From the IMG/VR virus record IMGVR_UViG_3300009071_000002, positions 1 to 55,495 of that record: DNA of 55,495 bases; one strand, given 5' to 3'. Under the pieces are notes generated by a model. It was not told the origin of the DNA. It ran no database searches and saw only the letters and a list, made by a program, of their open reading frames with translations. Below are positions 30,555-53,726 of the stretch, piece by piece (the first letter of the stretch is position 1; each line of letters begins with the position of its first letter). The translations under genes and the position numbers were made by a program. This DNA comes from a virus.

Positions 30555-33164
30555 CTATCCAAATGCAATTTGTGCTGCTCCTAATTTAATAGAATTTGCT
30601 GCTGATACAAAATAAGGTATCACATCAATTGAGTTTGCTGCTGTACTAATCGTCAATGCAGCTGCTGCCGGAGTTTCATAGTCTGTTCCTGTACTTAAAG
30701 TTCTACTACCAGTGCCATCTTGAATAAATACTATAATACCAGACTGTCCTACTGCTTCTGTAGAAGGGTTTACTAAAGTTACATTACCTGTTGCTGTAAG
30801 CACAAAGTTTTGATTTGCGTTAAAATCTAATGTTACATTACCAGTTTGTGATCCTGCTGTCAAGGTCTTTCCACGAGCAGCAGCACCAAAGGTTGATACT
30901 AAGTTTTCATCTATGGATATTGCTGGGGTTGTTCCTAGTGCAGAACCTAAGCCTATCACAAGGTCATCGGCAGAGTCATCTAATCCTATATAGAAGTCTT
31001 GAGCATTGCCGTCAAACACAATCTTTGCATCCTCTGCACCAGCATCTCCAATTGTTAATGTTGGAGTACCTCCAGTTATAGTCACATCTCCGTCTATTGT
31101 CAATAGGCTATCGGCTACAGTAATCAGATCTGTATCATCGGTGTGGCCTATTGTTGTTCCGTTGATTAAAACATTATCAATATCTAGTGAACCACCAGAG
31201 ATAAGTCCTGTAGTTGTAATTGTAGAAGAGCCAGTGTCTATAGTTCCAAACCCAGAAGTAATTGAACCAGAATTTAGTGCACCTGTTGTAACGATACCTG
31301 ATCCACCAGCTATTGGACTCAATACAGAAGCTATTGCTGTACCATTAATTGTTATAACGTCAGCTTCTAACGTGCCATCTATATCAACATTCCCAGAGAT
31401 ATCTAATTCTGTAGCAATAATTTTATCGTTAAAAGTTGCAGCTCCAGCAGCACTACCATCTATTGTTAAGAATGTTGTGTCAGCACCTCCGTCTGTTCCT
31501 TTAAATACAATATCACTGTCATTAGCTGCAGCATCTATAACTATGTTACCAGAAGATGTTGTAAGAGTTACAGCTGCATCCCCAGCAGCTATGTCATCGG
31601 CAGCTACACTAGATCCTATGTATGTTTTAATTCTAGAAGCTGCAACTTTTCTATTTGTACCACCAGCAGCATCATCAATAATAAATAAATCTGCATCGGC
31701 TATGTCTGCCCCTATGTCCGTACCACCGTCTATATCTATGGCAGCAAGTGGTAAAGTTCCTGTATCTCCAGAACCTATTAAGTTACCTGTTGCTGTAGGC
31801 AATGTTAACACTGCTGAACTACCTGCAGAATGTGCAGGTCCTTTTAGCTGTACACCATGTGAGTTGTTTTCACAGTTAAACTGGATTGTACCCGGATTGG
31901 TATTACCCAATACAGATACATGTCCTGTACCTTTGGCAGTCAAATTAAGATCTATATTAGAATCATCACCTGTTGCAGATAATAGTGGAGCACTACCAGA
32001 TGCAGCATTAGTTATATCAAATTGATTAACAGCAGAGCCAGTTGTTTGGAATATAATTTGTTCATTACCACTTTCGTCTGCAATAAAATGTGCATCGTCT
32101 ATTAATATGTTTTGAGAATTAGTGTCTAAGTTGCCACCTAATTGTGGGGATGTATCTTCTACTACGTTAGCTAAATCTCCACTTGAACCGGTGCCAGCAA
32201 TAACCGTAGCTCTTGTTATTTTTTTAAGACCACCACCGGATGCATCAACAGCTAAAAGAACATCACCAGATGCAGCAGTGCTAATTTCTGATAAATCTGT
32301 AACAGCTACAGGATTAAAGTTAGTTCCATCTGCAACAAGTATGTGCCCTGCAGTGTTTGTTCCCATAACAAGATCGTCACCAGTTATTGTAAGGTCTCCA
32401 CTTACAACTACGTTACCTGCTACTGTTAGTGAACCATCAGCTAAAGTCATTAAATCTGTATCGTCTGTGTGGCCTATTGTTGTTCCGTTGATTAGTACGT
32501 TGTCAATATCCAACGATCCACCGGAGATAAGCCCTGTAGTTGTAATAGTAGATGATCCTGTATCAATAGTTCCAAAACCCGAGGTAATAGAACCCGAGTT
32601 CAAAGCACCAGTTGTTACAATGCTAGAACTGCCGGCTATAGCACTATATATAGAACCAATGGCTGTACCACCTATTGTTATAGCATCGGCTTCCATTGTC
32701 CCATCTATGTCTGCATTACCAGATATATCTAATGTTGCAGCATCTAACTCACCGGATAGAGTAATGTTAGTTGCCCCTGTAATAGCACCATTTAAAGCAA
32801 CGGCACCGTTTATGTCTATGGTTGTGGCAGCTATTTGTATTTCTGTGTCGGCTACTATGTCAAGTTGCCCATCAGTAGAAGAGTTGATGTACAGACCAGT
32901 GTCTCTAAATTGTATTTTTTCATTAGTTGCTAAGAGTAAATCATCGGAGAACAAAAAGTAATCTTCATCTTCCATCCATGTAAGAACACCATCGTTGGTC
33001 TCTCCGTCAAATGTTAGTACAATGTCTGCACCTGCTGTACCTACTCCAAATGTTGGTGCAAGGAATGCTGCTGCTAATTGGTCAAATTCATTGTTTAAAT
33101 CAACTGCTTCAATAACACCCCCGTCTACTATTGCTGATGAACTCTGTCTAGTATAAACAGCCAT
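30555..33164 (-). CDS. Repetitive tail fibre with internal duplication
   Basis: An 869-residue fibre of the marine podovirus type. The N-terminus (MAVYTRQSSSAIVDGGVIEA; LNNEFDQLAAAF) looks like the virion attachment end; the shaft is made of short beta repeats with Thr-Ile-Gly-Gly-Thr-Ala and Leu-Asp-Ile-Ser-Gly-Asn units; the C-terminus (TLTAGSQTGNVTLDF onwards) is a beta domain usual in these fibres. About 75 residues (from VTTGALNSGSITSGFG to GTTIGHTDDTD) occur twice, encoded at about 31126-31289 and 32459-32620. It should form trimers. Confidence 0.8.
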   Translation of the reverse strand: MAVYTRQSSSAIVDGGVIEAVDLNNEFDQLAAAFLAPTFGVGTAGADIVLTFDGETNDGVLTWMEDEDYFLFSDDLLLATNEKIQFRDTGLYINSSTDGQLDIVADTEIQIAATTIDINGAVALNGAITGATNITLSGELDAATLDISGNADIDGTMEADAITIGGTAIGSIYSAIAGSSSIVTTGALNSGSITSGFGTIDTGSSTITTTGLISGGSLDIDNVLINGTTIGHTDDTDLMTLADGSLTVAGNVVVSGDLTITGDDLVMGTNTAGHILVADGTNFNPVAVTDLSEISTAASGDVLLAVDASGGGLKKITRATVIAGTGSSGDLANVVEDTSPQLGGNLDTNSQNILIDDAHFIADESGNEQIIFQTTGSAVNQFDITNAASGSAPLLSATGDDSNIDLNLTAKGTGHVSVLGNTNPGTIQFNCENNSHGVQLKGPAHSAGSSAVLTLPTATGNLIGSGDTGTLPLAAIDIDGGTDIGADIADADLFIIDDAAGGTNRKVAASRIKTYIGSSVAADDIAAGDAAVTLTTSSGNIVIDAAANDSDIVFKGTDGGADTTFLTIDGSAAGAATFNDKIIATELDISGNVDIDGTLEADVITINGTAIASVLSPIAGGSGIVTTGALNSGSITSGFGTIDTGSSTITTTGLISGGSLDIDNVLINGTTIGHTDDTDLITVADSLLTIDGDVTITGGTPTLTIGDAGAEDAKIVFDGNAQDFYIGLDDSADDLVIGLGSALGTTPAISIDENLVSTFGAAARGKTLTAGSQTGNVTLDFNANQNFVLTATGNVTLVNPSTEAVGQSGIIVFIQDGTGSRTLSTGTDYETPAAAALTISTAANSIDVIPYFVSAANSIKLGAAQIAFG

Positions 33165-43210: not shown

Positions 43211-43445
43211 TCTTTCTCATTTCTTTAAAATTATCCTTCAACTTGAGGAGCATTTCCAGTAAACCCGCTTTCCCCTGCAGTCGGTACACTTCCAGTTCCG
43301 ATGGTGCTACCACCAGTGCCGCTAGGGTCTGCTTGTGGAGGTTGTTGAGGTACTCCTCCAACACCTGCCATTCCAGCTTGTCTTGGCTGAGGAGCGGAGT
43401 TAGGGCCTTGAGGGGCTCCTTCCGGTTGTTCTGGTTGTTGGGCAT
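43200..43445 (-). CDS. Overprinted gene inside the portal 3' end
   Basis: An 81-residue frame, shifted against the portal and overlapping its last 215 bases. The protein looks folded: helical, with normal hydrophobic spacing (LEWQVLEEYLNNLHKQTLAA; ELEVYRLQGKAGLLEMLLKL). The portal in the same bases is a Gln/Pro/Gly low-complexity tail. AAAGGATTACAAG gives ATG 43445 a proper ribosome site. The N-x-x-E-V-L-E-E-Y-L ... E-L ... Q-G-x-A-x-L-x-x-L pattern resembles small proteins that follow portal genes in other podoviruses. I judge it real. Confidence 0.75.
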   Translation of the reverse strand: MPNNQNNRKEPLKALTPLLSQDKLEWQVLEEYLNNLHKQTLAALVVAPSELEVYRLQGKAGLLEMLLKLKDNFKEMRKNVS

Positions 43446-45342
43446 CTTGTAATCCTTTAAGTATTTCAGCGTATATCTGTGCTTCGTTTACATCGTTTAC
43501 TAAGCTGTCAGGATCAATATCCTGTGATATAGCTAGTTCTTTTAACAGGTTTGGTATTTTAATAAATGGTGCAAGCATTGGATTTCCTACAGTTTGCAAC
43601 AATGCTGTTAATCTTTGTGAACGTACTTCTTTTTGCATTACAGAAGCAGCTCCTTTTGGTTTAATTTCAAGATCTCCTTCTATATCTGGGTTATCTTCAT
43701 TAAACTGCATGTTCCATTGAAACAATGCCTCTCCTACAGGTTTAAGAAGATAATCATCTAAGTTTTTAATAACTGTTTTTATAGATAATCCTGAAGAGCC
43801 TAGCAACATAGATAAACCTGCAGCAGTTCTGCCTGTACCTGTTACACCAGTTTGACCATGCATAATGCTTGGTATGCCCGTTTCTTCATCAGCAAGTTGC
43901 CTTGCTTTGTCATACATTTGTATATTTTCACCAGCGGTGCTAGGAAATTTTATAGCGTTTACAGCAGTCCCAGTAACTCCTGACTGTCTTCTAAACACTT
44001 TTCCGGGAAAAATGTCGTAATTCTGTCCGGGTACAAGGGATGTTTCATCTACATCAAATACAAGGTTGCCAGCAAGTGCTAAATTATCTATAGCCATGCG
44101 TACATGCCCATTCATTAACATCTGTGCATCTTCCATGTTTTCTGGAATACCCACACCCCATATTTGATAGGGGTTTATTTCATATGGAAATATAGAATAG
44201 GGTAATCTAGCTGGCGTAAATGGATTTATACAAGCCCTTAATATTTGACCTCCTGAAATCCAAATGTTTACTTGAACTTCATCTAAATCATCCATGTCGG
44301 CAGCTTCTTCTAATCCTATTTGTTTAGCAAAAGTAGAATCTATTGTTCCCCAGTATTCTAACACTTCGTATCTTTCACTATCTACATATGGTTGAGTTTC
44401 GTCATCACGAATTGTATCTTCAAAATACTTTTCTTCGTAATTACCACCCCCAGCAATAACTTCTCTTATTGCTTCAGGATCAAACATAGGCATATTCATA
44501 AGATTACGTAATTGGGAACGATTCATTTTATGACGTTGTATAATGTACTCACAATCATCTACATTTGTTGCAGATGGATCGGAATATACATCCCAACAAC
44601 TGACAGCTTCTAGACGAGGAACTAATTTAGGATACGGAGTGTATGTTTTTGCACCCGACTCATCTTTTTCCCATTTATGAACAGTTTTACCAAAGTTAAA
44701 TGGTCCTTTAATTATTCCTGTACCCAATAGAGCAGATTCAAATATAGCATGACGTAAAACATTTACAGCATTAGTATCTGTAAGCTGATCATGCATAACT
44801 TTTTCCATACGCAAAGCTGCTTTTTTAGCTGGAGATATTTGGGGTTCTCCCATCCTTGAAGGACCTTCTGCTAAAGGAGCGTCTGCCCCATATTTGTTAG
44901 CTAATGATCCTAAAAAATCTAAATCAGCAGTTGCTTCTGTTGCTCCCGGATTTAATTGTTTTCCGTCACCTTCAAAACCATATGGACTAGATGATATTTC
45001 ATCAGCTGGTGTTTTAAGGTGAGCAAATTCTGCAATTCCTTCTGGTACAGGAGTAGACTCTACAGTAATTGGAAATTTTTTATTAGCAAATAAAATATCT
45101 ACAATTTGACCATAAGCAGCAAGCACTTTAGTTTTAGTTATTTTTATAAATACCTTAGATTTTTCAGTACTTGTGTACTGTGTAGTAGAATCATAAATAC
45201 CCCTAAAATTTTTATACGCTTTTAACCAGCGTTGTTCATGGGTTTGTCTACCGTCTTCGGCTGCTCTCATACGTTCTTGAATTAAACCTATAAGTCCAGA
45301 GCCTTCAGCTAAGGCTTCTTTTGCATCAATTGGATCAGACAT
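43231..45342 (-). CDS. Portal protein
   Basis: A 703-residue podovirus portal of the marine type. Key segments: RWLKAYKNFRGIYDST, EKSKVFIKITKTKVLAAYGQ, the wing region around CWDVYSDPSATNVDDCEYII, the crown-side PYSIFPYEINPYQIWGVGIP, and GQTGVTGTGRTAAGLSMLLG. It forms the 12-fold ring through which DNA is packaged and to which the adaptor binds. The last 70 residues are a Pro/Gln/Gly tail that doubles as coding sequence for gene 43200-43445. AAGGAACAGT precedes ATG 45342. Confidence 0.9.
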   Translation of the reverse strand: MSDPIDAKEALAEGSGLIGLIQERMRAAEDGRQTHEQRWLKAYKNFRGIYDSTTQYTSTEKSKVFIKITKTKVLAAYGQIVDILFANKKFPITVESTPVPEGIAEFAHLKTPADEISSSPYGFEGDGKQLNPGATEATADLDFLGSLANKYGADAPLAEGPSRMGEPQISPAKKAALRMEKVMHDQLTDTNAVNVLRHAIFESALLGTGIIKGPFNFGKTVHKWEKDESGAKTYTPYPKLVPRLEAVSCWDVYSDPSATNVDDCEYIIQRHKMNRSQLRNLMNMPMFDPEAIREVIAGGGNYEEKYFEDTIRDDETQPYVDSERYEVLEYWGTIDSTFAKQIGLEEAADMDDLDEVQVNIWISGGQILRACINPFTPARLPYSIFPYEINPYQIWGVGIPENMEDAQMLMNGHVRMAIDNLALAGNLVFDVDETSLVPGQNYDIFPGKVFRRQSGVTGTAVNAIKFPSTAGENIQMYDKARQLADEETGIPSIMHGQTGVTGTGRTAAGLSMLLGSSGLSIKTVIKNLDDYLLKPVGEALFQWNMQFNEDNPDIEGDLEIKPKGAASVMQKEVRSQRLTALLQTVGNPMLAPFIKIPNLLKELAISQDIDPDSLVNDVNEAQIYAEILKGLQDAQQPEQPEGAPQGPNSAPQPRQAGMAGVGGVPQQPPQADPSGTGGSTIGTGSVPTAGESGFTGNAPQVEG

Positions 45343-45357
45343 ACTGTTCCTTCTATA

Positions 45358-45603
45358 TTATGGTGTGTACTTTGAAGCACCCATTACTGTACCTAACGCA
45401 CCTGTTTGGTTTGCTGAGACAGATTTAGAGTCTTGTGTAGATTGAAATGGTCCGTTAATAGTACCGGCATTAGCACCAGCAATGCTTCCATCTAAAGCTT
45501 CACGATGTAATGAACTTTCATTAGCTTCATTCATTGCTCCTTGTTTACTCATCTGGCCCATTATGTAACCTGATTTGTAAGCTCCTGATACTCCTTGTGG
45601 CAT
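45358..45603 (-). CDS. Small protein upstream of the portal
   Basis: An 81-residue Ser/Ala/Gly/Asn-rich protein (MPQGVSGAYKSGYIMGQMSK; ending GTVMGASKYTP), likely disordered. AAAAGGAG precedes ATG 45603. Small genes at this place are common in marine podoviruses. Possibly a virion or assembly factor; unknown. Confidence 0.7.
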   Translation of the reverse strand: MPQGVSGAYKSGYIMGQMSKQGAMNEANESSLHREALDGSIAGANAGTINGPFQSTQDSKSVSANQTGALGTVMGASKYTP

Positions 45604-45630: not shown

Positions 45631-47721
45631 TTAAAATACTTCTTGTTTTTGTTCATCTAGATATATCAATTTACGACTATCTAAAATTTCTTTATCTTTA
45701 TCAGATAAAAAAGAACCTTCTGATTGTCTTAATTCTGCTACGTTTTCTTCTGTACTTGCAGGTTCCATCATAAGATTAGACCTAATTGTAATGTCTTTTT
45801 CTTCTGCAGATTTTAAATTTTTAGCCCGTTCTCCTGTATAATAATTTTCCGGAACTTCATTTGGAAATATTGCAAATTGAGCAAGTTGTTCTTCTACTGC
45901 TCTGTCTCCTTGTACTGCATATCTAATAGGTTCAAGAAGACCCATATATGGAAGTGCCTTTAGTCCTGCTTTTCCTATACCGTTTCTCCAAGCTTTTAAT
46001 CTTTGTTGAAATGTTCTTGGAGTTTCTTCGTTCATTCGCACAGGCCTACTGTCTTCTAACCTATTTTGTTCATCCATAATTTCTTCATCAGTTAAATTAG
46101 TACCTCTAATTGCATCTCTACTATCTTGGGCTTTTGCTCCCCTTTCCGCATCTATATTAAATTTACGTTCTGTTTTTCTTTTAATTTTTTCTTCTTCAAG
46201 AAATTTTTCGTTATTTGATATATCCTCTAAAGTTTCTTGATTTAATTTTGAAGCTTCAGCAAATCTTTTACGAGAATTAAGAAGAGCTTCCGACACTGCA
46301 TCATCAATATAGGCAGCATTGTTAGCATCTAAAGTGTGTAATCTACTGCTATTAGAATTTAAATTTTTAGCAAAATTAGTTTCGTGACTTTGCTCCCAAT
46401 CTATTAATGCAGCTTTTGGCATCCAACCCATAGCGTAAGTATGACGTAAAATTGCATCTTTTGCAGGTATTGCTGTATTATGTTTTACTTTAATTTCTGT
46501 TTCTGGTATAAGTATTTTACCACCAGTATTTTTGTACTCATTAATAACTCCATCTTTAGATAGTAAACTTTCTACAGAATTATAACCAGAGTAAGCAGTG
46601 TATTGATTATCTAAAATATCCATACCCGGAGTTATTATAGTTCTTAAAGCACCTTCAGTACTCATATATTTTATCATGGATACTGGAAGTTTTATACCAT
46701 GTGTTAAATTTTGATTATTAATAGCATTTTGAGTTATATAAAAAGGGTCTCCTTGTGGTAAATCTCCTCGTGCAAAAAGTGCACCAGATCTATCTTTAGC
46801 TAAATTTCTTATAAAAATTCTTGTTGGATTTTTTGTTTCATATTCTCCTAATCTTTCATTAAATACTTTAAATACTTTAGATGCATCTGTATTGTCAGGA
46901 ACATATGTATTTTTTAAATTATCTACTATTTCTTTATTTATTACAGCAGCATTTGGAAAAAGTTCTTTTCTACCATCTAATAGAGCTAACTGTCTGGCTC
47001 TTAAAACATAGTATCTTTCTAAATCTGTAAAATACGATAATCTACCTTTAGCAACATTTGCTTTTAAATTTTTAACTGCATCACCGCTATTATCTAATGT
47101 AGGATTATTTACATCATCAAAACTATCTACAGTTAACCTACTAAATTCAGCCGCTCTATCTCCTGTTAAAAATAGTAACCTAGCAGTAATTCTATCAATA
47201 CTACCTTTTGGATAAGTTTCTATATGGCGAGTTGTTGTAGCATATATATCATCTGGTATACTTGTAGGAACAACTCTGTCACCTTGACCACCAATCTTTA
47301 CGGCATAGCTACTATCTCCCGCAGATAATCTACTCATAGGTTTAACATCTGTATATTTTTCAAAAGTTGGGTCCATATAACCTTTTAATATTTTAGGACT
47401 ACCAAGTTTTTTATCTAATATATATTTTTGATTACTTAACTTTACATAATCTTTTGGAGACATATTAGCTATACGCATATCATTGTCAGGAAAACTATGA
47501 TTTCTATATTTTATCATAGTTGTAATCATTGCACTAACATCTGCTTTATTTAAACCTTTAGCAGCATTTACAGTGCCAGACTCTAAACTTTTTAATATTT
47601 TACTTTTCATATCAGCGGGTATAGAAGTATTCTGCATAAATGCTTCATAAGATTTTGCAGTCATTCCCGGTTGGGTTGTAAGCCTCTCAATAAAAAGATC
47701 TTCTACGGTAATATCAGCCAT
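45631..47721 (-). CDS. Large protein with tyrosine-recombinase-like domain
   Basis: A 696-residue protein between TerL and portal. Residues 174-200 (IDRITARLLFLTGDRAAEFS) match the Arg-I box of tyrosine recombinases, with R189; ALLDGRKELFPN (about 246-257) suits the later core; and 423-430 (AILRHTYA) matches the H-x-L-R-H-T box, R426, with the first His replaced by Ala. No Tyr stands about 32 residues on, where the nucleophile should be, so recombinase activity is doubtful. The rest is charged and helical. It may be a virion or packaging protein built on that fold. The start overlaps the TerL stop by one base. Confidence 0.6.
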   Translation of the reverse strand: MADITVEDLFIERLTTQPGMTAKSYEAFMQNTSIPADMKSKILKSLESGTVNAAKGLNKADVSAMITTMIKYRNHSFPDNDMRIANMSPKDYVKLSNQKYILDKKLGSPKILKGYMDPTFEKYTDVKPMSRLSAGDSSYAVKIGGQGDRVVPTSIPDDIYATTTRHIETYPKGSIDRITARLLFLTGDRAAEFSRLTVDSFDDVNNPTLDNSGDAVKNLKANVAKGRLSYFTDLERYYVLRARQLALLDGRKELFPNAAVINKEIVDNLKNTYVPDNTDASKVFKVFNERLGEYETKNPTRIFIRNLAKDRSGALFARGDLPQGDPFYITQNAINNQNLTHGIKLPVSMIKYMSTEGALRTIITPGMDILDNQYTAYSGYNSVESLLSKDGVINEYKNTGGKILIPETEIKVKHNTAIPAKDAILRHTYAMGWMPKAALIDWEQSHETNFAKNLNSNSSRLHTLDANNAAYIDDAVSEALLNSRKRFAEASKLNQETLEDISNNEKFLEEEKIKRKTERKFNIDAERGAKAQDSRDAIRGTNLTDEEIMDEQNRLEDSRPVRMNEETPRTFQQRLKAWRNGIGKAGLKALPYMGLLEPIRYAVQGDRAVEEQLAQFAIFPNEVPENYYTGERAKNLKSAEEKDITIRSNLMMEPASTEENVAELRQSEGSFLSDKDKEILDSRKLIYLDEQKQEVF

Positions 47722-49343
47722 CAGTATCCAAATACCTCATTTTCCGGCACATATCGTTGCATCTGCCTACTAGAATAGTACGGTGTGCTTGCATTGTGCA
47801 AAGATCGCACCATCATCATATATCGTAACGCATCGTATGCGTGGTCGTCTGCTTTTGTGTCTACATCCTCTGGGTTGTGCTTAGATAGAGGCAATGTAGG
47901 GAGTGTTCTTACTAAATTTGTACAATTGTCCATAATTCTTACTCTTGGTTGTCCTCTGCTGTCACAAGCTAGTCTTCTATGTATTTCTATCTTTCCTGCT
48001 AGTCTGTTTCTGTCGGATGGTATCCATCTACAGCCTTTTCTATTCATTGTTTCTGCTATACTTGGACCTAGCCCTGTTCTGTTCCAACAACTGGCATCTA
48101 ATACAGATATTTGCATGGTTGGGTCGTTTCTTTCTAACTCTAAGATTAGTTCACCAAGAGCTTCGCCGGTTCTACCCTTTATATACAGCTCTCTATATAT
48201 CCAGATATTGTTATCCCAGTCTATAGCACCCCAAAGAATACAAGAAGGACTACTGTAGCCATAATCTCCGGCACGTACCCTAGCCCAACCATCAGGTGGG
48301 TCAAAGGATTCCACGACATGTAGCGATCTACTAAATTCTGTAAAAGCTGCTCCCTCTGCGACATCCCAGTCTCCTTCTAATAATCGTTTTCGTTCTACTT
48401 CTGGTAAGGAGAGCAACATAGCTTCGTATTGCCCATCTATAGCAAGATACGGATTGTCTGTCAACCTTGCTGGTATAAATTTTTTTAGAAATAAAGGTTG
48501 CCCTTCTTTTGTATGTCCTGCAGGATACCTTATTGTTTTCTGTGTGTCAAACTCTTTTGCCCAAAATGCTGATCCGGGTGGGGATGGGTCTATGTACATC
48601 TTCTTTACCCACCAACCTCCTACTCCACCGGGGTTAGCTGTGCACCTCATGTAGAGACCAAGCTGTGGATCGGTACTTCTAAGTCTAGATCTTAGGTAGT
48701 TCCACACGTATGGAGTAGGATACTGTGTTATTTCGTCTATTCCTATCCAATTAAACGCTTGTCCTTGGTATCTTGTTACGTCTCTGTCGTCATCTACGTA
48801 GGAAAACCATATTTTAGCCCCAGAAGGAAACTCCCATGTAGACTTTGCTTGCTTAAACACTGCCCCCGGCACTGCTTTCATGTACAATTGCCTACTTTTG
48901 TCTATAAGTTCGGTCAATTCTGGTAGAGTACGTCTTAGTAGTAGGCCTCTGTGGTTAGGGTTACCTACATCTCTTAAAACATCAGCAAGAAGTGCATATG
49001 ATTTGCCTCCTCCAGCTGCTCCCCCGTACAATACGTCTCTTTCTGGGCTTTCTAAGAACTCTGCCTGTGGTCCATCGTTAGATTTAAAGACAACTTCGTT
49101 CTCAGCAACGTGGTTTCGTACTTTTTCTGGTAAAGCTAGTAGTTCTTCCTCAGATATAGGTTCTTTTCCATGTCCTGAGAGAGCTGCGTCTATCTTACCA
49201 AGGCTTTCTTGTAGTTTATTTGCCCTGTACCGTGCATTTACGGCACGTTTTGATTCTTTTTTTGCTTTTGCTTTAGCGTTAGATAGTTTTGTTGATACGG
49301 ACTTGCGTATCGCTTTCCTATCCAGTTTGGCTTTCGCTGCCAT
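47721..49343 (-). CDS. Terminase large subunit
   Basis: A 540-residue packaging motor. A basic helical extension precedes the ATPase: Walker A GGAAGGGKS (about 107-115), the arginine-rich LLLRRTLPEL, Walker B FNWIGIDEIT, and coupling motif CTANPGG. The nuclease half shows RAGDYGYSSPS, ISVLDASCWNR and DDHAYDALRYM, the three acidic clusters of the RNase H-like fold. It pumps DNA into the prohead through the portal. The ATG at 49343 lies in the end of the preceding gene, with AGGAAC 10 bases upstream. Confidence 0.95.
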   Translation of the reverse strand: MAAKAKLDRKAIRKSVSTKLSNAKAKAKKESKRAVNARYRANKLQESLGKIDAALSGHGKEPISEEELLALPEKVRNHVAENEVVFKSNDGPQAEFLESPERDVLYGGAAGGGKSYALLADVLRDVGNPNHRGLLLRRTLPELTELIDKSRQLYMKAVPGAVFKQAKSTWEFPSGAKIWFSYVDDDRDVTRYQGQAFNWIGIDEITQYPTPYVWNYLRSRLRSTDPQLGLYMRCTANPGGVGGWWVKKMYIDPSPPGSAFWAKEFDTQKTIRYPAGHTKEGQPLFLKKFIPARLTDNPYLAIDGQYEAMLLSLPEVERKRLLEGDWDVAEGAAFTEFSRSLHVVESFDPPDGWARVRAGDYGYSSPSCILWGAIDWDNNIWIYRELYIKGRTGEALGELILELERNDPTMQISVLDASCWNRTGLGPSIAETMNRKGCRWIPSDRNRLAGKIEIHRRLACDSRGQPRVRIMDNCTNLVRTLPTLPLSKHNPEDVDTKADDHAYDALRYMMMVRSLHNASTPYYSSRQMQRYVPENEVFGY

Positions 49344-52874: not shown

Positions 52875-53291
52875 CTAATCCTCACCGCTGTCAACCACCG
52901 TTGGCATTGCTGACTTGCTTGGCATAAGTACAATTCCGTGCAGTGCCTTTATGTCGTGCTCTTGTTTTTCTATTTTGCCCAGCCCTACTCTGTCTAATAG
53001 AGTTTGTGCTGCCTTTAGTCTAAGTTCTTGTCTAGGGTTTAGTCCGTCATCGTTCATGGACTCTACCACTCTTGATACGGCTGTCGCCGAATTAACGGCT
53101 AGTTCTCGTTTAGATATGTCTACGATTTCGTCTGCAAGGCTTTTAACCAACCATGTTCTAGAAGAAGGAGAGTAACCGGCTTCCTCACAGGCTAGGGCTA
53201 TGTCGCCTTTGTTTACGAAGAGACAGTTGAGAAACTTTTGTTGCTTCTCGGTAACTTCCTTTTTTTTCTCTGCTAAGAGTGCTGAAGTCAT
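52875..53291 (-). CDS. Small terminase-like protein
   Basis: A 138-residue helical protein. EVTEKQQKFLNCLFVNKGDI followed by ALACEEAGYSPSSRTWLVKS matches the N-terminal DNA-binding helix-turn-helix of TerS (PF03592 type: T-x-K-Q-x-x-F ... A-A-x-x-A-G-Y-S). The C-terminal half (RQELRLKAAQTLLDRVGLGK) suits oligomerisation. It probably recognises phage DNA for TerL, although TerL is four kilobases further on. The start overlaps the upstream stop (ATGA). Confidence 0.78.
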   Translation of the reverse strand: MTSALLAEKKKEVTEKQQKFLNCLFVNKGDIALACEEAGYSPSSRTWLVKSLADEIVDISKRELAVNSATAVSRVVESMNDDGLNPRQELRLKAAQTLLDRVGLGKIEKQEHDIKALHGIVLMPSKSAMPTVVDSGED

Positions 53292-53455
53292 CCGTACGTC
53301 TTGGCCTTTCTCATTCCGCCACCCATAGCGTACGTCTTCTTGTGGACCTTGCCACCACCCATCATCTTTTTCTTTTTAGAAATAACACCTTTACCCATAA
53401 GGATATCCTTCTGAGTAATTTTACCGTCACCGGATAGGTCTGGAAATTTAGCCAT
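53288..53455 (-). CDS. Small EF-hand-like protein with C-terminal tag
   Basis: A 55-residue protein. Residues 6-17 (DLSGDGKITQKD) form a canonical 12-residue EF-hand/dockerin calcium loop. It is followed by GKGVISKKKKMMGGGK and the tag KTYAMGGGMRKAKTYG, nearly identical to the end of the neighbouring 53448-53726 gene. The start lies inside that gene's final codons and the stop overlaps the next ATG. I associate the family with marine phages; its role is unknown. Confidence 0.75.
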   Translation of the reverse strand: MAKFPDLSGDGKITQKDILMGKGVISKKKKMMGGGKVHKKTYAMGGGMRKAKTYG

Positions 53456-53726
53456 ATGTTTTTGCCTTTCTTATACCACCACCCATAGCGTACGTTTTCA
53501 TTGCCTTGCCACCGTATGCCATCTTTTTCTTTTTAGCTCTGCCACCGTAGGCTTTGTTACCCGGCCCACGAGGTCCAGTTTTTCCTTTAAAGACAGCAAA
53601 GTTATTTATCAGTGCATTTGCAGCAGAATCACTCATTTTACTTAATTGGGTTTGACCAACGCCTGTTTTTTCAAGGGCTTTCATAGTGGCGGCTAAATCT
53701 ATATTGGCGGGTAATTTAAATTCCAC
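53448..53726 (-). CDS. Small basic protein with C-terminal tag
   Basis: A 92-residue protein: an N-terminal helical domain (EFKLPANIDLAATMKALEKT; QTQLSKMSDSAANALINNF), then basic Gly-rich repeats (AYGGRAKKKKMAYGGK) ending in KTYAMGGGIRKAKTYG. The start is GTG 53726 with GGAG 9 bases upstream, three bases after the PqqA-like gene. Probably a virion-associated or DNA-contacting protein; no family named. Confidence 0.7.
   Translation of the reverse strand: MEFKLPANIDLAATMKALEKTGVGQTQLSKMSDSAANALINNFAVFKGKTGPRGPGNKAYGGRAKKKKMAYGGKAMKTYAMGGGIRKAKTYG

Follow-up and report, generated by a model that had tools for sequence, protein, structure and literature searches.

The gene that lies between the genes of the terminase large subunit (TerL) and the portal protein in a marine podophage genome codes for a divergent homologue of the tyrosine recombinases, as judged from profile comparisons. 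The best explanation of this protein, to which we give a probability of about 0.55, is that it would be made late in infection, would be tethered by its C-terminal tail and would act on the phage's own DNA. The alleles of the gene are exchanged as a whole between otherwise near-identical phages, and their tails are found on unrelated catalytic heads.

The slot gene and its neighbourhood

The window, that is, the whole stretch of DNA that was analysed, is a virus record of 55,495 bases with identical ends of 123 bases. It contains the genes of a primase, a DnaB-like helicase, a DNA polymerase, a Cas4-like exonuclease, a ribonucleotide reductase, an amidase, a capsid protein, the portal protein and TerL. 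The TerL and the DNA polymerase are nearest to those of the HMO-2011-type phages (CRP-207, CRP-603, HTVC033P and HMO-2011), with 37-57% identity. The window belongs to an HMO-2011-type marine podophage, and as a genome it looks complete.

The following genes are arranged one after the other on the minus strand: TerL (540 residues, positions 47721-49343; PHROG terminase, E=1.7e-60), the recombinase gene, which we call the slot gene (696 residues, 45631-47721), a gene of 81 residues that is conserved in related loci (45358-45603), and the portal gene (703 residues, 43231-45342; SU10_portal, E=7.5e-25). An earlier note on this DNA had pointed to a 696-residue open reading frame between TerL and the portal, and this frame is indeed present, starts with ATG, has relatives, and is separated from the portal by the 81-residue gene. 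The start codon of the slot gene overlaps the TGA of TerL, as the junction in L001, an identical contig, shows. On the 3' side of the slot gene there are only about 10-35 bp, which are common to different alleles and carry the ribosome site of the next gene. The product of this small downstream gene is Gly/Ser-rich and conserved; it was considered as a possible Xis and rejected, with no winged helix discernible by eye. Only short inverted repeats occur in the slot gene, near it and in several further parts of the window that were inspected, and no target site was found.

Related contigs and loci (denoted by L- and G-numbers) were fetched by means of TerL, at 63-100% identity. Identical and contained slot proteins were removed, and some of the contigs are overlapping or redundant. 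In nearly every contig that is long enough, TerL is followed by a slot gene, a gene of about 75 residues and the portal. Throughout this large uncultivated clade, the slot protein is usually 540-810 residues long, belongs to one recombinase superfamily and has a long C-terminal tail. The close relatives (83-100% identity) of P0001, the slot protein of the window, come from IMG/VR contigs, and its distant relatives (19-26%) were found next to TerL in contigs and by a profile scan. A search of annotated phages with P0001 and three other slot alleles gave no match, so that no isolate with such a gene is known.

A minority of the loci are organized differently. The contig L085 has no slot gene, and in a side group called g5 (L138, L139, L140, L144, L148 and L155) the slot is occupied by lysine-rich proteins of 202-355 residues. 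These loci suggest that the function of the slot recombinase is dispensable in some backgrounds. The TerL-portal gap of Sinorhizobium phage phiM6 (L097) contains a 535-residue SGNH hydrolase-like protein, and that of Rhizobium phage RHph_N3_19 (L095) contains an unrelated protein of 849 residues, which is probably the one that matched an FAD-oxidoreductase. The position between TerL and the portal thus takes unrelated large genes. The gap proteins of g5, phiM6 and RHph_N3_19 share the genomic position with P0001, but no recombinase domain was found in them.

Several other features of these genomes were observed. A 300-base internal duplication of the window (31070-31369 and 32396-32695, 75% identical) is situated within an 869-residue gene (30555-33164), which is overlain by long antisense open reading frames of 339 and 279 residues. 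A pair of 55-base direct repeats, which are 80% identical, occupies positions 53285-53339 and 53445-53499, and the second repeat lies at the 3' end of a small gene on the minus strand (53448-53726). The product of this small gene carries a basic Gly-rich C-terminal tag, KAYGGKAMKTYAMGGGIRKAKTYG. The tag recurs near TerL on several small proteins that differ from one another, and whose open reading frames lie upstream of TerL at many loci (for example L005:69-557 and L012:619-1282). The non-recombinase slot proteins of g5 end in a similar C-terminal tag, RKPYAMGGKVYSN. Possibly, KAYGGKAMKTYAMGGGIRKAKTYG and RKPYAMGGKVYSN are DNA-binding or packaging tags.

Recombinase homology and the active site

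Single-sequence searches with P0001 give no Pfam match at E<=10 and no PDB match, and PF00589 has no match anywhere in the 55,495-base window. The Pfam family Phage_integrase is matched by 7 of 24 aligned slot proteins (the best one, at 2.1e-6, lies above the curated cut-off), and the PHROG integrase family by several of them (best 2.5e-8). A profile of 22 slot proteins finds XerA (PDB 4a8e; 7.9e-6), on which box II and the tyrosine fall in register, and other recombinases more weakly. The profile of g2, the group to which P0001 belongs, matches that of the neighbouring slot group g1 with E=1.2e-18 (4.2e-15 when only the catalytic half is compared). The g1 profile matches the reference integrases (lambda Int, Cre, XerD, HP1 and HMO-2011-type) with E=2.1e-7. 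Control comparisons, made with column-shuffled profiles and with TerL, stay at noise level, with a probability of 1% or less. The direct match of g2 to the reference integrases is weak (E=0.05), so that the homology chain has two links and passes via g1; the g2 profile has no match in the PDB. On the strength of these comparisons, P0001 is a divergent tyrosine recombinase homologue. The proposal of the earlier note that the packaging module houses a domain of the integrase type, which is unusual, is borne out by them.

The catalytic core, as placed by the g2-g1 profile alignments and by PDB 4a8e, spans approximately residues 150-365 of P0001 (46627-47274; this and all the following features are on the minus strand). 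The profile alignment of g1 with XerD pairs R179 with R148, K204 with K172, R282 with R247, R307 with H270 and Y316 with Y279, and that of P0001 with g1 pairs R189 with R179, R305 with R282 and Y352 with Y316. R189 (47155-47157) is thereby aligned with XerD R148, R305 (46807-46809, in the motif PTRIFIR) with the box II arginine R247, and Y352 (46666-46668, in GIKLPVSMIKY) with the nucleophile Y279. The motif LLFLTGDRAAEFSRL, in which R189 had been taken for the box I arginine, is present in the sequence and represents the true box I. All three residues are identical in the 10 complete g2 proteins, and R189 is invariant in the distant relatives. As 34 of the first 400 g2 columns are invariant, the probability that three preselected columns are all invariant by chance is about 6e-4.

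The lysine of the beta-hairpin would be either K220 or K225 (47047-47064): K220 is on an invariant lysine column of the slot alignment, and the placement by hhalign is not decisive. This lysine is clear in g1 and g0b. In the other slot groups, the few invariant residues include R, K, R, H/R and Y, and in g0b the residues R206, K247, R331, H354 and Y381 are kept in all 12 proteins. In L040, the spacing, with positions +23 and +32 after the arginine and the tyrosine at +32, equals that of XerD when counted by eye in the alignment.

Box II had been identified in the earlier note with R426 and H427 (46441-46446) of the motif AILRHTYA. The motif exists, but it is only a look-alike of box II. It lies outside the catalytic core and aligns with V375/D376 of g1, it is not conserved beyond the relatives of 88% identity, and the position is not R-H in L045, L050, L058, L103, L104 and L106, which belong to the same group (about 19-26% identity). 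As box II and the nucleophile were sought at the wrong place, the description of the domain as lacking a nucleophile and being inactive is not supported. With R305 at box II and the invariant Y352 on the nucleophile position, the protein is probably not without a nucleophile.

Both active-site histidines are replaced in g2 and g1, that of box II by I/K and that of box III by I/R. In P0001, I302 takes the place of the histidine in the HxxR of box II, the arginine of which is R305, and I343 is found where box III would have a histidine or a tryptophan; g1 has R307 at the latter position, and the groups g0a, g0b, g0c, g4 and g6 have a histidine. The box III position varies across the tyrosine recombinase superfamily, where it is His or Trp. 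The loss of the histidine therefore weakens the claim of activity more than the claim of homology. P0001 is probably an active enzyme with Y352 as its candidate nucleophile; it is only probably so because both histidines are replaced and the hairpin lysine may be either K220 or K225.

Exchange of slot alleles and tails

Allele exchange at the slot is unusually sharp. In 128 protein pairs with 95-100% identical TerL, the identity of the slot proteins has a median of 23%, with 85% of the pairs below 35%, and that of the portal proteins a median of 87%. The last 360 bases of TerL are identical in L053 and L054, which diverge from the start of the slot gene and become nearly identical again right after its stop codon. 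Whole slot alleles are thus exchanged, from the TerL stop codon to the slot gene's own stop codon, so that the protein is wholly replaced while the preceding gene can be the same to its last base. Selection within one slot allele is purifying: comparison of the window with L002 gives a dN/dS of 0.227 for the slot gene (0.173 for the catalytic part and 0.347 for the tail), and the dS of the slot gene is like that of TerL (0.31 and 0.33, respectively). As the evolution within an allele is normal, the diversity of the slot comes from replacement by unrelated alleles and not from fast point change.

The C-terminal tail of P0001 (residues 473-682; 45676-46305) is charged, then Gly-rich and hydrophobic, then acidic, and is recognized by a tail profile with E=1.1e-24. 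The tails of L042 (group g0) and L050 (group g2) are 50% identical over 156 residues, and no similarity is detectable between their heads. The tails of P0001 and L036 are 35% identical over 138 residues. These cases of tail-only sharing show that tails move between catalytic heads that are not related to each other. The profile of the P0001 tail has no match to other open reading frames of the window or of the loci. The idea that the tail is a module shared with the g5 proteins, to which it bears a likeness by eye (GKxGLKxLP), was rejected, the profile match being not significant.

Possible role, alternatives and comparison with known recombinases

By combining the above observations, it is possible to outline how the slot protein might work. 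In P0001, the N-terminal part would occupy the position of a DNA-binding domain and be followed by the catalytic core; about 300 further residues would extend the protein at its C terminus, the tail module coming last. The conserved residues suggest that it nicks and rejoins DNA via a 3'-phosphotyrosine at an allele-specific site. As the start codon of the slot gene lies on the TerL stop codon, the gene is expected to be expressed late, together with the packaging and capsid proteins. The tail, as our best guess, might tether the enzyme to the packaging machinery or to the virion. The enzyme would then act on the DNA of its own phage during packaging or just after injection, leading to circularisation, multimer resolution or integration, and whole-gene exchange among close relatives would change the DNA specificity. 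More tentatively, an active, late, possibly virion-borne recombinase with an exchangeable tail might represent an undescribed kind of specificity locus in a large marine phage clade, with alleles of different DNA specificity swapped between near-identical phages; it might serve to circularise the genome, to integrate it on entry or to compete. Literature searches brought up no report of a recombinase in the TerL-portal position.

It is possible, but doubtful, that the phages are temperate and the slot protein is simply their integrase, relocated from its usual site ahead of the replication genes, with different attachment sites for different alleles. Conventional integrases are present in HMO-2011, CRP-1, CRP-3, CRP-207, CRP-235 and ctYwJ313, and the TerL-portal regions of HMO-2011, CRP-207, CRP-235 and ctYwJ313 contain no slot recombinase of this length (in ctYwJ313, a 219-residue open reading frame only). 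Such a distribution would suit a relocation, and there is no integrase match outside the slot in the window or in the slot-bearing contigs G001 and G002 of about 55-57 kb. PF00589 matches were found in 6 of 21 related contigs, some of which are of the g5 type or partial, and all six are inside the slot gene; most of the 21 contigs are fragments, so that an integrase elsewhere is excluded for the long ones only. Allele exchange would suit a changed target site, and integration of CRP-3 has been reported (PMC9038755). The int gene lies upstream of the replication genes, and none is reported in the HMO-2011-type subgroups IV-X (PMC9038755). However, HTVC033P and HTVC115P, as well as RHph_N3_19 and phiM6, have neither an integrase nor a slot recombinase, and the slot protein has an additional C-terminal part of about 300 residues. 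The slot gene abuts TerL and leaves no non-coding room for attP on either side, which speaks against an ordinary int-attP unit, although a site inside the slot open reading frame or far away is conceivable. The window has no tRNA genes, and no Xis-like partner is visible by eye. In a prophage scan of 84,980 genomes by TerL alignment, none of the best 80 loci was a prophage of this kind, and no relative exceeded 56% TerL identity; at the five best loci, the slot held a 189-residue non-recombinase open reading frame in two cases and no large open reading frame in three.

The view of the earlier note, that the integrase fold is reused in a catalytically dead structural or DNA-end-binding protein, now appears unlikely, and the case for a purely structural reuse is weaker than it seemed in that note. 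The late position of the gene, the loss of both histidines in g2 and g1 and the lack of a direct profile match for P0001 would agree with it. But the tyrosine and both arginines do not vary between groups that are only about 12-25% identical, and one would expect a structural protein neither to keep exactly these residues nor to give way to unrelated alleles next to a portal that is conserved. More unlikely still is that the slot protein is a delivered or late-acting weapon against the DNA of rival phages or of the host, in which variable heads and exchangeable tails would be combined as in polymorphic effector cassettes. The shuffling of heads and tails, the allele swaps between near-identical phages and the replacement of the recombinase by unrelated proteins in g5 all fit this idea, but recombinases are poor nucleases, and no gene resembling an immunity partner changes along with the alleles: the small gene that follows the slot is conserved. 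Finally, a likeness to recombinases that is due to chance short motifs is very improbable: the R426-H427 motif was indeed a coincidence and the single-sequence searches are empty, but the profile comparisons with their controls and the Pfam and PDB matches of the slot relatives argue otherwise.

The late, tail-tethered recombinase acting on the phage's own DNA is thus the preferred reading. Phages of the HMO-2011 type reportedly dominate in the ocean, and their subgroups IV-X have been described as having no identifiable lysogeny genes and therefore as possibly obligately lytic (PMC9038755). At least some of the HMO-2011-type phages without int appear to carry a recombinase that is nearly missed by standard profiles, and lifestyle calls made from PF00589 only may therefore be wrong. 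The many natural slot alleles, some of which (those of g0b and g4) have the full R-K-R-H-Y set, offer material for the role of a recombinase in a packaging operon.

The slot protein resembles XerA/XerD, lambda Int, Cre and HP1 Int (PF00589) in having the box I arginine, the box II arginine and the tyrosine in the same order, and the likeness to XerD extends, in g1, to the lysine and to a similar spacing. P0001 differs from XerD in the interval between R305 and Y352, which is 47 residues as compared with 32 in XerD and points to an insertion. The known tyrosine recombinases differ from the P0001 group, in which the histidines are replaced and a long C-terminal extension is present, and also from the slot gene in general, which is located in a late packaging operon and undergoes extreme allele exchange. 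The integrases of the HMO-2011-type phages (HMO-2011 phage1322_09, CRP-3 gp02 and CRP-1 gp13) are of the same superfamily and come from the same kind of phage as the slot gene. They are, however, encoded upstream of the DNA primase gene, have 290-360 residues and match PF00589 at 1e-13 to 1e-22, whereas the slot gene is located elsewhere and is nearly invisible to PF00589.
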